Source: a virus
IMG/VR virus record: IMGVR_UViG_3300035703_000446
Location: 1-21,088 of that record
Strand: one strand, 5' to 3'
DNA length: 21,088 nt
Positions 32 to 11,526 of the stretch are shown here, piece by piece (the stretch's first letter is position 1; each line of letters starts with the position of its first letter). A program made the translations under genes and the position numbers. The notes under the pieces are model-generated. The model saw nothing but the letters and a program-made list of their open reading frames with translations. It made no database searches and had not been told where the DNA came from.

Positions 32-415
32 TTATGCAGGGTAGGATTTATGGGGCAACTGGAAATGCGGCCCGTCCTTGAAGGTGCGCCAGTCCCCACC
101 CCATTCGATGGGCACGTTCAACTCGGCTGCGGCTGTTTTCATCGCCTTGGCAATCTGGTGGTAAAGCGGCCAGTCCCAGCGCACCTCACCGTCCACCCAA
201 GCGCCAAGATCGACCGCATGGCCTGTGATGTGGCGGGAGTTCAGCGTCTGGCTGGCACCAGCTTCTTTCAACACCTTCTGGCGCTCTGGGGTGCGCAGCC
301 CTTCGAGCACAGCGAAGTCAACGGTCGTGATTTCGATGGCATGCTCGACGACCTTGACCAGATCGGGGTGCACGCCTTTCATCCTGTCTTTGGAGCGCTG
401 CGAGAGCTTGAACAT
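32..415 (-). CDS. endolysin, L-alanyl-D-glutamate peptidase type (M15/VanY-like)
   Basis: A 127-aa zinc peptidase expected to cleave the stem peptide of peptidoglycan at host lysis. The M15 signature is present: an Arg in LEGLRTPERQ near residue 41, the metal-binding SRHITGHAVDL (H62, D69), and the closing GPHFQL (H117). Residues WGGDW (about 105-109) lie where the family has its catalytic acid region. There is no signal peptide or wall-binding domain. Length fits the single-domain T5-type lysins of phages of Gram-negative hosts. ATG 415 abuts the stop of the holin-like gene. Another start with a good SD lies 11 nt after its stop. Confidence 0.93.
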   Translation of the reverse strand: MFKLSQRSKDRMKGVHPDLVKVVEHAIEITTVDFAVLEGLRTPERQKVLKEAGASQTLNSRHITGHAVDLGAWVDGEVRWDWPLYHQIAKAMKTAAAELNVPIEWGGDWRTFKDGPHFQLPHKSYPA

Positions 416-667
416 TTATTTGTCCGCCTTGTTGTCGATCTTCTCTTCAATGTGGTCGAGCTTCTGGAAGATGCGGTTTAGCGCATCATCGAATGACTCA
501 CGCTTGACGTAGTTGCCTGCCACCAGCACTTCGATGTTGGCGACCTTCTCGGCCAGCCTGGTGTCTGCGCGTTGCAGGTCTTTGACCGCCTGCCACACCG
601 CATTCAACAAGAAACCGATCAGACCGCCGAACCCTGCCAACAGCCAATTGATGATTGTTTGATCCAT
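416..667 (-). CDS. small membrane protein, putative holin-like
   Basis: An 83-aa protein with one N-terminal transmembrane segment (about residues 5-25: IINWLLAGFGGLIGFLLNAV). An amphipathic coiled coil follows: QAVKDLQRADTRLAEKVANI, then FDDALNRIFQKLDHIEEKID, ending KADK. Proteins of this shape often lie beside the endolysin in phage lysis cassettes and may act as holins or lysis regulators. With a single TM span, holin function is not proven by sequence. There is no clear SD before ATG 667. Its TAA is immediately followed by the endolysin ATG, so the two are likely coupled. Confidence 0.75.
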   Translation of the reverse strand: MDQTIINWLLAGFGGLIGFLLNAVWQAVKDLQRADTRLAEKVANIEVLVAGNYVKRESFDDALNRIFQKLDHIEEKIDNKADK

Positions 668-685: not shown

Positions 686-1060
686 TTAGGAGAAAACTGA
701 CGCTTGTACAAATTGCAAATCTGCAGCTGCGTTTGAGTTATTAAATGTAGTCATTCTGAAAGTAGAAGTTGTTTGAGCTGCTGCAGCAGAGACCATCAAC
801 CAACGACCACCAGCACCAGATTCAGCACATGATCCAGAAATAGCATAATTCGCATCACTCATCGCACTCGTAAAGTTGACCGTATAGTCCCCTGTCCCGT
901 TGTCAGTAATCGACGAGACATTGAACGCACGACGAATGGCGACTGTGCCTGTTCCGTTGAAGTTCACCCACGCTTTGGCCGAGCCATCCACGACCGTATC
1001 GGTCGGGACAGTCTTGCTGCCTGCTAAGTTGGAGAGCGTTGTTGCTTTGATTGTGGACAA
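686..1060 (-). CDS. short fibre-tip-like protein, paralogue 3 (TTG start)
   Basis: A 124-aa protein starting MSTIKATTLSNLAGSKTVPT, an N-terminus typical of phage fibre proteins. The start codon is TTG at 1060, supported by an AGGAG SD 7 nt upstream; no ATG or GTG fits that N-terminus. The shared core is at residues 30-72: AWVNFNGTGTVAIR, RAFNVSSITDNGTGDYTVNF, MSDANY. The C-terminal part is unique (SCAESGAGGRWLMVSAAAAQ, TSTFRMTTFNNSNAAADLQF, ending VQASVFS). It has a longer linker before the core than the other copies. It is the last gene before the lysis genes. Weak initiation at TTG may make it the least expressed copy. Confidence 0.82.
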   Translation of the reverse strand: MSTIKATTLSNLAGSKTVPTDTVVDGSAKAWVNFNGTGTVAIRRAFNVSSITDNGTGDYTVNFTSAMSDANYAISGSCAESGAGGRWLMVSAAAAQTTSTFRMTTFNNSNAAADLQFVQASVFS

Positions 1061-1072
1061 TTTTTCTCTCCT

Positions 1073-1447
1073 TTAGCGGAAGATGGAGACGGAGAAGAAT
1101 GAGCAATCTTCTCGCTGAAGATTTCTAACACCGTCAGCCACGCCTTGGGCAATACGCACTGCTGTGGTAGTAGGACTAGCCAGTTCGTCCGCAAGCCTTG
1201 ATATATTAATTAGCGAGGTGTTTACACTGCTTCTATTCGTGTTTATTACAGTTGCATAATTAGCATCCGGCATCGCGGTCGTAAAGTTCACCGTGTAATC
1301 GCCAGTGCCGTTATCCGTGATGCTGGATACGTTCCCACTCGCACGAATCGCTACAGTGCCAGTGCCGTTGAAGTTTACCCAAGCACGGCACTTATAGTTC
1401 TCAGTGCCATCAGGGTTCAACCACTGATTAAACTTTGCCGTGCTCAT
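1073..1447 (-). CDS. short fibre-tip-like protein, paralogue 2
   Basis: A 124-aa protein starting MSTAKFNQWLNPDGTENYKC. The core shared with its two relatives is at residues 22-64: AWVNFNGTGTVAIR, ASGNVSSITDNGTGDYTVNF and MPDANY. The last 60 residues are unique (NTNRSSVNTSLINISRLADE, then VADGVRNLQREDCSFFSVSI ending FR). By eye the core DNA (1256-1384) differs from the corresponding segments of the others at many third positions although the protein is nearly identical, which points to old duplication with selection on the fold. Single Cys residues at 20 and near 114 are specific to this copy. Receptor binding is inferred. Confidence 0.82.
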   Translation of the reverse strand: MSTAKFNQWLNPDGTENYKCRAWVNFNGTGTVAIRASGNVSSITDNGTGDYTVNFTTAMPDANYATVINTNRSSVNTSLINISRLADELASPTTTAVRIAQGVADGVRNLQREDCSFFSVSIFR

Positions 1448-1450
1448 GAT

Positions 1451-1681
1451 TTACAGCCCTTCAACGATGGTTTTCAGCGCACCCACATCAGCGGCTGCGT
1501 CGATCTGGTTTTGCACCTCGGCATACTTGGCACGCACAGCCTGACGAGCAGCCTCAGCAGCAGCGGCCTCAGAGGGAATAGTGGCCTTCACATCCAGAGG
1601 AGCAAACTCGGCTGCACGGGCAGCGCGGCGCTTGTCATGGGCGATGGTCTTGGCTTTGTCGATGTTGATTGCGATAGGCAT
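1451..1681 (-). CDS. probable tail-fibre assembly protein, C-terminal part
   Basis: A 76-aa helical protein: MPIAINIDKAKTIAHDKRRA, ARAAEFAPLDVKATIPSEAA, then Ala/Glu-rich helices (AEAARQAVRAKYAEVQNQID) to the end. The NIDKAKxIxHxxRRxAR pattern and the following EFxPxD are typical of the C-terminal helical part of phage tail-fibre assembly or chaperone-like proteins. ATG 1681 has an AAGGAG SD and starts 11 nt after the previous gene. The stop is 3 nt from the start of fibre paralogue 2. It is probably the partner of the 61-aa product; this is inferred from adjacency and from joined versions elsewhere. Confidence 0.8.
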   Translation of the reverse strand: MPIAINIDKAKTIAHDKRRAARAAEFAPLDVKATIPSEAAAAEAARQAVRAKYAEVQNQIDAAADVGALKTIVEGL

Positions 1682-1692
1682 TTGATTGCTCC

Positions 1693-1878
1693 TTATTCAG
1701 AGTAAGTCCAGGCATCACGGAAAGTGCGATCGGATGGAATGTCCTCGACAGCAACAACCTGATACGGCTTGCCAGCAGGCACGGCCTTGAGCACGTCCTC
1801 AAGAGCGACGCCGGGTGCTGGTACGACGATTGCGACTCCGCCTTCGTCATTCGGGTAGATGATGCGTTGGTTTTCCAT
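1693..1878 (-). CDS. probable tail-fibre assembly protein, N-terminal part
   Basis: A 61-aa protein: MENQRIIYPNDEGGVAIVVP, APGVALEDVLKAVPAGKPYQ, VVAVEDIPSDRTFRDAWTYS and a final Glu. The pattern Y-x-N-D-x-G-G-V-A followed by P-A-G-x-P-Y and D-R-T-F-R-x-A-W is common in small phage proteins beside tail-fibre genes. In some phages, as I recall, it is joined to a domain like that of the next gene, giving a two-part fibre-assembly factor. ATG 1878 has an AAGGAG SD. It lies between fibre paralogues 1 and 2, so it may help them fold or attach. No catalytic motif is visible. Confidence 0.8.
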   Translation of the reverse strand: MENQRIIYPNDEGGVAIVVPAPGVALEDVLKAVPAGKPYQVVAVEDIPSDRTFRDAWTYSE

Positions 1879-1907
1879 TTGGGTTTCTCCTTGGGTGAAT
1901 GGATGGG

Positions 1908-2255
1908 TTAGCGGAAGATGGCGACATGCACTAAAGCAGAATCAACGGCTGCTGCGGTTATCGGGTTGTTGGTTAATACTTGTGAACTAGACGCTGACAC
2001 AGTTGAATAAGCTATTGTGTCATTTGCTGTGTTTGCCGTAGACTGTGTCGATTCAGCTATAGCAGAATAATTCGCATCCACCATCGCTGTCGTGAAGTTG
2101 ACTGTGTAATTGCCCGTTCCATTGTCCGTGATGCTGGAAACATTAAACGACGCACGAATGGCCACCGTCCCTGTGCCATTAAAGTTGACCCACGCTTTGA
2201 CTGCGTTACCGCCTGCTGTATCAAAATTGTCGCTACCGCGAATAGTTGATGGCAT
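1908..2255 (-). CDS. short fibre-tip-like protein, paralogue 1
   Basis: A 115-aa protein, first of three related ones in transcription order. After a short N-terminus (MPSTIRGSDNFDTAGGNAVK) comes the shared core at residues 21-63: AWVNFNGTGTVAIR, ASFNVSSITDNGTGNYTVNF and MVDANY. The rest (about 52 aa, Thr/Ser/Ala-rich, ending DSALVHVAIFR) is unlike the other two except for the final hydrophobic strand. The core is common in phage and environmental virus tail proteins and reads as a small beta-sandwich. It follows the tailspike-like adaptor by 12 nt with a GGAGAAAAG SD. Function as a receptor-binding or fibre-tip subunit is inferred from position and the constant/variable layout. Confidence 0.82.
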   Translation of the reverse strand: MPSTIRGSDNFDTAGGNAVKAWVNFNGTGTVAIRASFNVSSITDNGTGNYTVNFTTAMVDANYSAIAESTQSTANTANDTIAYSTVSASSSQVLTNNPITAAAVDSALVHVAIFR

Positions 2256-2267
2256 GTTCTTTTCTCC

Positions 2268-3122
2268 TTAAACCACTGTCCAAGTGCTGCCACTCGGTAC
2301 GGTCACGGTAATTCCACTGTTGATCGTCACAGGCCCGGCGGTCATCGCGTTCTTGCCAGAGGTGATCGTGTAGTCGTTGGTCACGGTCTGGTCGTTCTCA
2401 AAGAAGATTTTATTCGACCCACCCCCTGTTGCGCCACCCCCAGAGCTGGAAAGACCAACGCTGCGGAACTCGGTGCCAGAGCAGACGATGAAGCAAGACT
2501 GGCCAGCGGCCAAAATCAAGGTCGATGCACCGTCGATGGTCTCGCCACCGTTGGGGTCGATGGTGATCGAGCCAACGCCCACGTTGACCACACCGAAGGC
2601 GAAGCCATCGCCAAGCGTAGCCGCTGCAGTCAGCGACAGCGTCCACGTGCCAGTGCTGTTGAACACCTTGCCTCGGTCGCCTGTGACGACCGTGTAAGCG
2701 CCCGAGAGCGCAGTCGTGTCAGAGGCCAGTGCGCCAAGATTCAAGAGGGCTGCGGCCTGCGTCGTGCCACCCGTGCCACCTTGGTTCAGCGGTACCGTGC
2801 CTGCGATCAGCGAGAAGTTGATGCGCTCGGTTGCGTTGAGCGACTGGAACACCAGCGTGCTGTTCTTGTTCTTCACGGCCACCGAGTAGTCGGTCGCGTC
2901 CACATAGATCGAGGCAGGCGAGCCGCTTCGCATCGGGTAGCCACCCAGCGTGCGCACAGGCTGCGAGGCGGGAATGGTCAGCGCGGCATCCCAGTAGATG
3001 GCCTGTGGGTTGGCTTCTGCTGGCAGGCCAGCCGTGCCGATGTAGATGTAGCCATCCTCCAGCGGCTGGCCATCGCGGTCTGTGAAGATCGCAAACGGCG
3101 AGTAAACGGACAATGCGGACAT
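2268..3122 (-). CDS. tail protein with P22-tailspike-like head-binding domain, no catalytic domain
   Basis: A 284-aa protein. Residues 8-108 resemble the P22 tailspike (gp9) head-binding domain: PFAIFTDRDGQPLEDGYIYI corresponds to the P22 pattern VAFSDGKPVANGKIYIG, followed by ALTIPASQPVRTLGGYP and DYSVAVKNKNSTLVFQ. A fibre-type motif (VPLNQGGTGGTTQAAALLNL) covers about 109-130. The C-terminal part is short beta-strand repeats with a Gly/Ser hinge (SSSGGGATGGGS, about 225-236) and a strand-rich end (TVTNDYTITSGKNAMTAGP, then VTVPSGSTWTVV). P22 gp9 has 666 aa; the endorhamnosidase beta-helix is absent here. It probably anchors at the tail and carries or connects to other receptor-binding parts. 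The start overlaps the preceding stop. Confidence 0.88.
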   Translation of the reverse strand: MSALSVYSPFAIFTDRDGQPLEDGYIYIGTAGLPAEANPQAIYWDAALTIPASQPVRTLGGYPMRSGSPASIYVDATDYSVAVKNKNSTLVFQSLNATERINFSLIAGTVPLNQGGTGGTTQAAALLNLGALASDTTALSGAYTVVTGDRGKVFNSTGTWTLSLTAAATLGDGFAFGVVNVGVGSITIDPNGGETIDGASTLILAAGQSCFIVCSGTEFRSVGLSSSGGGATGGGSNKIFFENDQTVTNDYTITSGKNAMTAGPVTINSGITVTVPSGSTWTVV

Positions 3123-8947: not shown

Positions 8948-10120
8948 TCACTGTTGGACTTGGGTCACCGACAGGATAACGGCTGGCGCTGCTGGCGCAA
9001 ATGCGGTCGCAGCCACATTGTCGACGGTCACGGCTGTGCTGTCAGCGGCAAATGCCAACTCGATGTAGTCGCCTGCGGCCAGCGACACTGGTTCTTGCAT
9101 GGCCAACGGGATGTAGCCGTTGTTCAAGTCAGAGGTGACCAGCCGAGCAGAGTTGGGGATGGCCGTGCCGTTCTTCTTGAACCATACCCAGATGTTCTTT
9201 GCAGACGAGCTTCCGCTGGTCAGCTGCAAGTTTGCGTCCAGCCGATATAGGCCAGAGGCAGGCACGATGATGCGAGACGTTGGCGTGCCAATGGTCACCC
9301 CGTTGCTGATCTCGGTGCTGTCGAATGTCAGCAAGTACTCGGTGTTGACAGCGGCAGGCGACTGGTCTGTGGTCTTAGCAAAAACCCCGTAGTACTGCAT
9401 CTGCTGAATTGTTGGGCGCACAAAAATCATACCGACCGTTGCATCTGATGTGATGCAAGCGGCCACTGGGATGACGTTGTCAGGCGCTGTCGGCTTGACG
9501 TTGGTCAATGCGCCTGCCACCGTTGGGCTGGCATAAAGCAGGTCGCCAACAGCAAATGCGCTGGTGTCCAGATCGCGCACAAAGCCCCATGTGGTGCAGT
9601 AGCCCTTTTGCCCACTGTCGGGCAGGTCGTGGGTCATCACGCCCAATATGTAGAGCGAAGGCGACGACCCGTCTGCCAAGTAAGGTGCGACCAGCAAGGC
9701 CTCTGTTGTTGCACCTACAAAGCCCACCACCGAGCCGTTCGGAATGGTCACGCCAGTTGTGTTGCCGACCCGAGCATACTGCTCCTGCCCGATCTGCTGC
9801 GTAACCCCATAGTCCATGCGCAAATCAAGGGTCTGATCTCGCTTGTTCCACTTGGCCTGCCCCATGCGTGTGGCAGCCACCGCGTTTGGATTGAACTCGA
9901 CCGCATCGACCTGCGCCAAGTTGCTGATCGCCCGGTCGCCTTTGTTGTCGGCCACACCTGCGTTCAAGCCTGTGTCCTCGATCAGCCTGGTCAGAATGGC
10001 GATGTCGGACGGGCTGAGGTTCTCGACGATCTGGAACAGTCGCTCGAATGCCTTGATCGCCTCGTGGTCGGGCAGGAACTTGGCAAGCTGGTCTCGGGTG
10101 AGAGGCTTTTGGGTTGCCAT
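8948..10120 (-). CDS. fibre-like virion protein with C1q/TNF-like C-terminal domain
   Basis: A 390-aa protein in three parts. Residues 1-50 are helical (LTRDQLAKFLPDHEAIKAFE) and resemble N-terminal anchors of other phage appendage proteins. Residues about 95-240 form a beta-rich middle (TGVTIPNGSVVGFVG, YILGVMTHDLPDSG, FAVGDLLYASPTVAGALTN) common in phage fibres. Residues 243-390 (YYGVFAKTTDQSPAAVNTEY, RIIVPASGLYRLDANLQL, KNIWVWFKKNGTAIPNS, VSLAAGDYIELAFAAD) have the strand pattern of C1q/TNF-like jelly rolls, usually trimeric. It follows gp10, where P22 has its tail needle gp26, but shows no gp26-like coiled coil. It may be a needle knob equivalent or a separate fibre; receptor binding is inferred. 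Confidence 0.85.
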   Translation of the reverse strand: MATQKPLTRDQLAKFLPDHEAIKAFERLFQIVENLSPSDIAILTRLIEDTGLNAGVADNKGDRAISNLAQVDAVEFNPNAVAATRMGQAKWNKRDQTLDLRMDYGVTQQIGQEQYARVGNTTGVTIPNGSVVGFVGATTEALLVAPYLADGSSPSLYILGVMTHDLPDSGQKGYCTTWGFVRDLDTSAFAVGDLLYASPTVAGALTNVKPTAPDNVIPVAACITSDATVGMIFVRPTIQQMQYYGVFAKTTDQSPAAVNTEYLLTFDSTEISNGVTIGTPTSRIIVPASGLYRLDANLQLTSGSSSAKNIWVWFKKNGTAIPNSARLVTSDLNNGYIPLAMQEPVSLAAGDYIELAFAADSTAVTVDNVAATAFAPAAPAVILSVTQVQQ

Positions 10121-11526
10121 CAGAATGCCAGCGGTTCTAGCCGCGCCTCAAGTCGTGCGATGCTCAGTTGCGCATCACTTGTGCCACGGAAGCGCTGAAT
10201 GCGCCAGTTGCGCATGGTGCCCTGCTGCAGCCAGACGATGCGCTTCAAACGCTCGCCCTGCGTGCCTGCCTTGATGCGGGTGTTCAACTCCATGCTCCAG
10301 GTCATCCCGTCGAGCGAGTACTGCGTCCAAATGATCGGGTCAGAGCCAAAGGCTGCGCGTCCGGTCAAGCAGACCAACTCCAACTCGTGGAACACAGCGC
10401 CTCGGCCTTCGTTGTAGACGATCAGCGTGCCAAACTCCCAGCCGACCAGATTGCCGTAGTGCGAGGACACCGTGTCGCTCAGATAGCCATGGCTGCTGCT
10501 GGTCGGGTCGCCAACGAGCCATTTGTCGTAGCACCAGACCAGATCGCGTGCGCGGTACTGGCCGAGCGTAAATAGGCTGGTTGTCAGGGTAAACCATACC
10601 GCCTCGCCCAGCACTTGACTGGCTGCGCCATCGTAGACCAGCGTCTGGTCTGGCAGATGGATGTAGAGCAGCTGGTGTCCCTTGTCGACACGGGCTTCCA
10701 TGACCACAGCGGACAGTTGCGCCTCGGTGTATCCCAGCAGCACCTGATCAATGTCGCTGCTGCTGATCTTGACGGTCTGGCTGTTGGCACCGAGCCAGAC
10801 TGCGGGGGCCTCGTTGCGTCCACCACCCATGAAGGCGATGTTCTCAAGGAACACGCAGCAGGTGTGCGTGCCCAGCGTGCCGCGCTGAATCTGGCCACCT
10901 TCGACGCGACCGAACGGGAAGTTTTCGCCACCCACGTTGTCGAACACCTCGATGGTGTGGCGGTTCAGTGCGTAGATTTCGTTGCGCAGCTTGAGCAGCG
11001 CTTTTACCGGGTCTGGGTCGGCTTCGGCAGAGCCGTACTTCAGCGGATTGACAGCGAACGGGTCGTTCAACTCGGTGACGACCAAGAAGGTGCCATCGGT
11101 CGTCATGAAGTAGCCATCGACCCAAGCCACATCGAGTACCGTGCCGAGGTCGGCATCGGTGACCTGCTGCAGCGTTGTTCCGTTCCAGTAAAACAGATTG
11201 CCGTTGCTGGCAATGGCCAGCCGGTCAAAGGAGTAGTCAAAGGTGACGGGCGTGCTGCCACCAACATCGCCCAGCACGGTCGTCGTGCCATTGCTGGCAA
11301 TGCTGACCAGCTTGGTGCCCATCACCCGGTAGCAGACCCCGTTCCAGTTGATGCCACCTCGGGACGTGCCTGGGCCTGTGCCGTTGGCCACAATGCCATC
11401 AGCCGGGCGCAGGTAGCCTGCCGAGATGCCGCTTTGCTTTGGCACCGGCATAAGGTTGCGCGGGTAGGCCACACGGAAGTCGGGCGACTGGTCGGTGTAG
11501 ATGCCGTTGAGGATTGGAATCTGCAT
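10120..11526 (-). CDS. P22 gp10-like tail hub / packaged-DNA stabilisation protein
   Basis: A 468-aa protein matching P22 gp10 (472 aa), which binds gp4 below the portal and helps close the filled head. Similar features: N-terminus MQIPILNGIYTDQSPDFRVA, YPRNLMPVPKQSGISAGYLR (P22 has YLPVNMLATPKE and SGYLRSFPG), repeated beta-propeller-like strands such as YSFDRLAIASNGNLFYWNG, the segment LKLRNEIYALNRHTIEVFDN, and QLLYIHLPDQTLVYD (P22: ELLIIHLPRHVLVYD). The C-terminus has RLKRIVWLQQG and ARLEARLEPL. No strong SD precedes ATG 11526, so translation probably depends on the 53-aa gene ending 6 nt upstream. TGA and the next ATG overlap (TGATG at 10120). Confidence 0.93.
   Translation of the reverse strand: MQIPILNGIYTDQSPDFRVAYPRNLMPVPKQSGISAGYLRPADGIVANGTGPGTSRGGINWNGVCYRVMGTKLVSIASNGTTTVLGDVGGSTPVTFDYSFDRLAIASNGNLFYWNGTTLQQVTDADLGTVLDVAWVDGYFMTTDGTFLVVTELNDPFAVNPLKYGSAEADPDPVKALLKLRNEIYALNRHTIEVFDNVGGENFPFGRVEGGQIQRGTLGTHTCCVFLENIAFMGGGRNEAPAVWLGANSQTVKISSSDIDQVLLGYTEAQLSAVVMEARVDKGHQLLYIHLPDQTLVYDGAASQVLGEAVWFTLTTSLFTLGQYRARDLVWCYDKWLVGDPTSSSHGYLSDTVSSHYGNLVGWEFGTLIVYNEGRGAVFHELELVCLTGRAAFGSDPIIWTQYSLDGMTWSMELNTRIKAGTQGERLKRIVWLQQGTMRNWRIQRFRGTSDAQLSIARLEARLEPLAF

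Follow-up and report, generated by a model that had tools for sequence, protein, structure and literature searches.

Three short genes in a genome fragment of 21,088 nucleotides from a water-borne tailed phage (IMG/VR record IMGVR_UViG_3300035703_000446, positions 1 to 21,088, referred to here as the window) encode paralogous proteins that combine a nearly constant core with a C-terminal part that differs from one protein to the next. The locus raises the questions of what these proteins are, how their variable parts come to differ, and whether the three are used one at a time or together. The genes of the locus are read on the minus strand and are listed in that order in Table 1, where the three paralogues are designated slots 1 to 3. 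The labels are based on ORF coordinates together with PHROG profile matches.

Table 1. Genes of the locus in the window, in minus-strand order, with the subdivisions of the slot genes.
Gene	Coordinates	Strand	Product (aa)	Start codon	Subdivisions or assignment
Upstream fibre/adapter protein	2268..3122	-	284		likely platform for the tips
Slot 1, tail-tip protein	1908..2255	-	115	ATG	anchor 2255-2196, core 2195-2067, variable tip 2066-1911
chapA	1693..1878	-	61		candidate N-terminal half of a split tail-fibre chaperone
chapB	1451..1681	-	76		phrog_20196 (unknown function); candidate helical half of a split chaperone
Slot 2, tail-tip protein	1073..1447	-	124	ATG	anchor 1447-1385, core 1384-1256, variable tip 1255-1076
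Slot 3, tail-tip protein	686..1060	-	124	TTG	anchor 1060-974, core 973-845, variable tip 844-689
Small membrane-type gene	416..667	-			
Endolysin	32..415	-			

Elsewhere in the window, the product of 10120-11526 has a match to PF11134 (E 5e-39), the family of phage stabilisation proteins that includes P22 gp10. Because of this match the phage is likely to be short-tailed, although the relative MW202867, a circular record of 34.5 kb, has been deposited as Myoviridae. In MW202867 a homologue of the fibre protein is annotated as 'T7-like tail fiber'. Relatives of the tip family are found in aquatic proteobacterial genomes, for example those of Rhodoferax, Vogesella and Limnobacter, and there are hints from sequence of a proteobacterial host.

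The common core of 43 residues that had been reported in the initial annotation is present in all three genes, running from A-W-V-N-F to D-A-N-Y with approximately 36 of the 43 columns identical throughout. The paralogues match one another at E 1e-24 to 1e-25, therefore the shared core is not a chance resemblance. In the core DNA 25-27 of 44 codons differ, 20-21 of them synonymously and 4-6 nonsynonymously, and 23-27 of the 32-40 nucleotide changes are at third positions. As the codon changes are mostly synonymous, the earlier proposal that this is not a recent duplication holds. The variable C-terminal parts, of 52, 60 and 52 residues in slots 1, 2 and 3, are 18-23% identical pairwise when measured over the longer tip. 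This agrees with the earlier description of these parts as sharing almost nothing except the last strand, however in the wider family the tips are also united by the motif T-T-S-x-x-R-x-x-T and by an Asp that is invariant at ten residues from the end.

All three slot proteins match phrog_11355, a 'tail fiber protein' family, at E 8.6e-25, 7.7e-20 and 8.2e-21, the matches covering residues 7-123, 19-97 and 16-115 and thereby the greater part of each protein. No match to the Pfam family Gp53-like_C (PF21882) was found for them at E <= 1; weak matches to this family are present in 7 of 80 relatives, the best at E 7.7e-4. Searches of Pfam and NCBIfam with the three slot proteins gave no match other than one of slot 2 to an enzyme, which is evidently spurious, and the tips gave no informative match in a PDB sequence search.

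Fold predictions, made for monomers from an alignment of 80 sequences, are all-beta and of moderate confidence, with a pLDDT of 69.5 for slot 1 and 81 for slot 2. In the slot 2 model residues 20-124, comprising the core and the variable part, align as one domain to solved chains. The closest of these are the C-terminus of the phiAB6 tailspike (Z 7.9, 90 aligned residues) and the Pam1 tailspike (Z 7.7), and the H-type lectins SLL-2, Helix agglutinins and discoidin II are found at Z 5.8-6.5 (SLL-2 6.5, Helix agglutinins 6.2) with AP22 gp53 at 6.1, the overall range being 5.0-7.9; all Z are below 8, and such values may reflect a common arrangement and are not proof of the fold. The model also aligns with the LKA1, phi297 and R-pyocin fibre tips. 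For slot 1, phiAB6 and Pam1 rank first, Pam1 at 33% identity, and phage tips are concentrated at the top of the structural ranking for both models. Among viral predicted models there are 64 matches at E <= 0.001, several of which are annotated as tail fibres or tailspikes. Since the models place the core and the variable part in one domain, the core is best regarded as that half of the tip domain which stays constant, rather than as a separate scaffold, and the two parts together would form a single beta-sandwich like that of H-type lectins or tailspike tips. The original suggestion of receptor-binding tips on one scaffold therefore agrees with the tail-fibre tip family and the predicted fold, but not with the place given to the core, which in the models is the first half of the same beta-sandwich and does not lie beneath the tips.

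Exchange of the variable halves is seen in a set of four close genomes, consisting of the window, MW202867, found by tblastn, and contigs L090 and L091, found through the fibre gene. All four keep the three slots in the same gene order. DNA identity across them is 0.94-0.96 for the fibre gene and 0.80-0.94 for cores of the same slot, but 0.48-0.56 for tips of the same slot, the baselines being 0.52 when every pair of tips is compared and 0.49 after codon shuffling of the tips. In the four genomes, no two of the 11 tips that belong to this family are alike. In the twelfth slot, slot 1 of L091 (1930-2271), the anchor is retained but bears a tip from another family: the first 14 residues are kept and the remainder is a different domain of phrog_18834/26525 type, which is also C-terminal in other fibre-like families. 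The anchor can therefore hold unrelated tip families. At the DNA level the cores cluster according to slot (permutation p 0.005), with no clustering by genome. With cores that group by slot and same-slot tips that differ, the sequences show that slots are inherited and tips are exchanged, and the comparison of the locus in related phages that had been proposed thus reveals swapping of the variable halves. A breakpoint gradient along the core was not found in the four genomes, identity being approximately 0.79-0.88 in all quarters. No donors of the three window tips were found in single-tip searches of IMG/VR, which reach close relatives only.

Tip exchange is not confined to this group. Among all loci collected, five groups include pairs whose tips are unrelated although their surroundings are 85-98.5% identical, these being the present one, L008/L013/L111, L018/L034, L059/L071 and L101/L141/L142. 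Near-identical contigs keep their tips, as expected. Sharp breakpoints are found only in pairs outside the four close genomes. L018 and L034 are 98.5% identical over 3.8 kb up to the end of the core; beyond it the tips are dissimilar, and the match resumes for 43 nt around the end of the gene. In L141 and L142 one tip is kept at 99% while the neighbouring tip has been exchanged. L114 and L123 carry the same tip (94% DNA identity) on different anchors in largely unrelated surroundings, and their shared DNA begins at the core. Metagenomic misassembly is unlikely to be the general cause of such differences, given that in-frame junctions are repeated across several data sets and occur in the circular record. 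The first 80 relatives were fetched with core peptide patterns, so that core conservation is inflated in that set; it is weaker, yet still strong, in loci fetched with chapA, a set that was also filtered with a profile including the core and in which the bias is smaller.

Diversity that is extreme but limited to a single segment of each gene could also arise from targeted mutagenesis by a diversity-generating retroelement. This origin is most improbable, and it was rejected for lack of a reverse transcriptase: no RVT_1 match was found in 10 records, the circular MW202867 and nine others. The tips are unequal in length and diverge throughout, the flanking core DNA differs as well, at synonymous sites, and the same tip is found on different anchors, all of which fit recombination rather than mutagenesis.

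Free-standing homing-endonuclease genes are found beside tip slots in some relatives, with three in L091 (1331-4040) and one, of NUMOD4/HNH_3 type, beside a slot in L006 (743-1231). They are absent from the window. A general linkage of HNH_3 to the locus was not upheld, as 8 of 49 records have one and these are mostly elsewhere. Judging from L091 and L006 only, homing endonucleases beside the slots may promote tip exchange.

Beta-sandwich folds of this kind also act as decoration and general carbohydrate-binding modules, and the slot proteins could accordingly be virion decoration, or provide non-specific surface adhesion, instead of determining host specificity. This is an unlikely interpretation, since both the sequence family and the closest matches by fold point to fibre and tailspike tips and the slot genes directly follow the fibre gene. 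In addition, near-identical genomes that have exchanged variable halves are reminiscent of the host-recognition islands of aquatic phages, for which variable tail-fibre genes in otherwise near-identical genomes are established (PMC3909814) and, in cryoconite phages, receptor-binding variants have been described as shuffled independently by recombination (PMC7468147). As in metaviromic islands, unrelated putative receptor-binding variants are found here between otherwise near-identical genomes. Unlike in those islands, the exchanged unit is half of a protein of 115-124 aa, and three slots lie in parallel, each with its own anchor and with a joint of 43 aa that is nearly invariant.

The element specific to each slot is the anchor, the N-terminal 20-29 residues, of which there are three classes. 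The slot 1 class has IRGSDNFD, the slot 2 class a G-T/V-E-x-Y-x-C-R-like end, and the slot 3 class L-S-N-x-A-G-[ST]...V-V-x-G-[ST]-A-K. All three are also found together in L005, L006 and L009. Two anchors or a variant set are present in L017, L049, L062 and L092, and some relatives are without slot 1 or have a third, different tip. The C-terminal portion of approximately 50 aa of the fibre protein (ENDQTV..NAMTAGPVTI..PSGSTWTVV) is found again immediately before such arrays in a number of distant phages, several of these loci among them, and this protein is likely to be the platform for the tips. The three anchors would represent distinct docking places that are used together.

It had been left open in the initial annotation whether the tips are alternative or jointly used. 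A shared core combined with a different variable half in each of three paralogues might be expected of a phase-variable or regulated set from which one tip is used at a time. Such a set is improbable, however, because the three different anchors are conserved across genomes and recur together, each class occurring at most once per locus in those collected. All three genes are also intact and in an operon-like layout, each with a start site, and two have strong ribosome sites (TAAGGAG, a good site, in slot 1 and AAAGGAG before the TTG start in slot 3), that of slot 2 being weaker. No exact inverted repeat in 600-2300 exceeds 12 nt, the length of the longest one, therefore phase inversion through a long inverted repeat was discounted. 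Joint use is favoured over alternative use by the recurrence of the three anchors and by the intact state of the three genes, without a reverse transcriptase or long inverted repeat.

The small genes chapA and chapB are closely linked to the tip family. A search with chapA only returned 74 loci, of which one (L006) was already in the collection. In 70 of the 73 new loci there is a tip-family gene on the same strand, and in 63 of the 73 it ends less than 100 nt upstream of chapA, with a median of 22 nt. Over the whole collection chapA and chapB lie next to each other in 93 loci, and in 14 loci they are fused into one ORF of approximately 140 residues. Pfam contains no family for chapA or chapB and gave no tail-fibre-assembly match; one fused relative has a weak match to phrog_4912, 'tail fiber assembly' (E 0.048), and a PDB sequence search with the fused candidate gave no informative match. 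Because the pair accompanies the tip family in nearly all relatives and is sometimes fused, a split tail-fibre chaperone is suggested. This is the best guess for the pair, based on synteny, fusion and size, and is rated as somewhat better than even.

Small fibre genes followed by a small gene are also found in Pam3, where the gp24/gp25 pair is a tail fibre and a cognate chaperone composed of a beta domain at the N-terminus and a helical, trimerising domain at the C-terminus (PMC9608196), and in Alteromonas phages V22 (gp26/gp27) and A5 (gp8/gp9), where the fibre/chaperone module is shared between distant phages (PMC10579305). The two-part layout of chapA and chapB resembles the two-domain chaperone of Pam3. 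In contrast to Pam3 and the Alteromonas phages, the putative chaperone here is made up of two genes, is shorter, and has no clear sequence match to known chaperones.

It is considered quite probable that the locus encodes three free-standing, exchangeable tail-tip proteins, each made up of an anchor, a constant half and a variable half, together with a two-piece chaperone. The three proteins would be receptor-binding tips, presumably trimeric, of a tailed and probably short-tailed phage. Each anchor would give its tip a separate docking position on the tail, probably at or close to the fibre encoded at 2268-3122. The half-domain of 43 residues hardly changes, and the variable half of 52-60 residues would complete the H-type-lectin-like beta-sandwich and bear the receptor-contacting surface. 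Close relatives keep the slots while the variable halves are swapped, each slot independently of the others, probably through homologous recombination with the constant half as the upstream joint and the conserved last strand and intergenic DNA as the downstream joint. The products of chapA and chapB, encoded between slots 1 and 2, would probably make up the two-piece chaperone that folds the tips. A more demanding version, with the three tips together on one tail through one anchor each, the invariant half as both framework and recombination joint, the variable halves acquired port by port and the two-gene chaperone folding each tip, is tentative and in its entirety rather doubtful.

A longer version of such an array is found in Puniceispirillum phage HMO-2011 (GU557055; L086 804-7493), which has about a dozen consecutive short tail-related genes. 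The same sequence family, phrog_11355, is represented there, with two places that match slot 1. In comparison, the present locus has three slots with conserved anchors and an interposed pair of small genes, and tip exchange is seen between close relatives. The Gp53-like/H-type-lectin tips (AP22 gp53, phiAB6, Pam1, R-pyocin, Helix agglutinin, discoidin) resemble the fold predicted for core plus tip but usually end a long fibre or spike, whereas here the tips are small separate proteins. The Gp38 adhesins of T-even phages, to which the slot proteins may be likened, are separate tip proteins with conserved blocks flanking variable segments and with glycine-rich loops. In the slot proteins no glycine-rich loops are apparent and the predicted fold is a lectin-like sandwich. 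No description was found in the open-access literature of the compact three-slot form of tip exchange, of constant and variable halves of one domain with the joint at the end of the constant half, or of the linkage of the tip family to chapA/chapB.

The locus provides a very small unit of putative receptor-binding exchange that is defined by sequence and whose joints and anchors can be recognised, along with a pair of genes as its putative partner. With it one can test how uncultured aquatic phages vary their binding, whether several small tips act jointly on the same tail, and how tips that are always changing are handled by a general chaperone. The chapA/chapB pair, which is unannotated, could serve to mark host-recognition loci in metagenomic phages.

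Genes of the tip family are also present in bacterial genome contigs (L166-L199), mostly from aquatic Proteobacteria, and these are probably prophages or phage contigs. Elsewhere in the window, the gene at 8948-10120 encodes a protein of 390 aa with a C-terminal BclA_C-like (C1q/TNF-type) domain (E 4e-4). This protein weakly matches slot 1 (E 9e-4) and is possibly another fibre or decoration protein.
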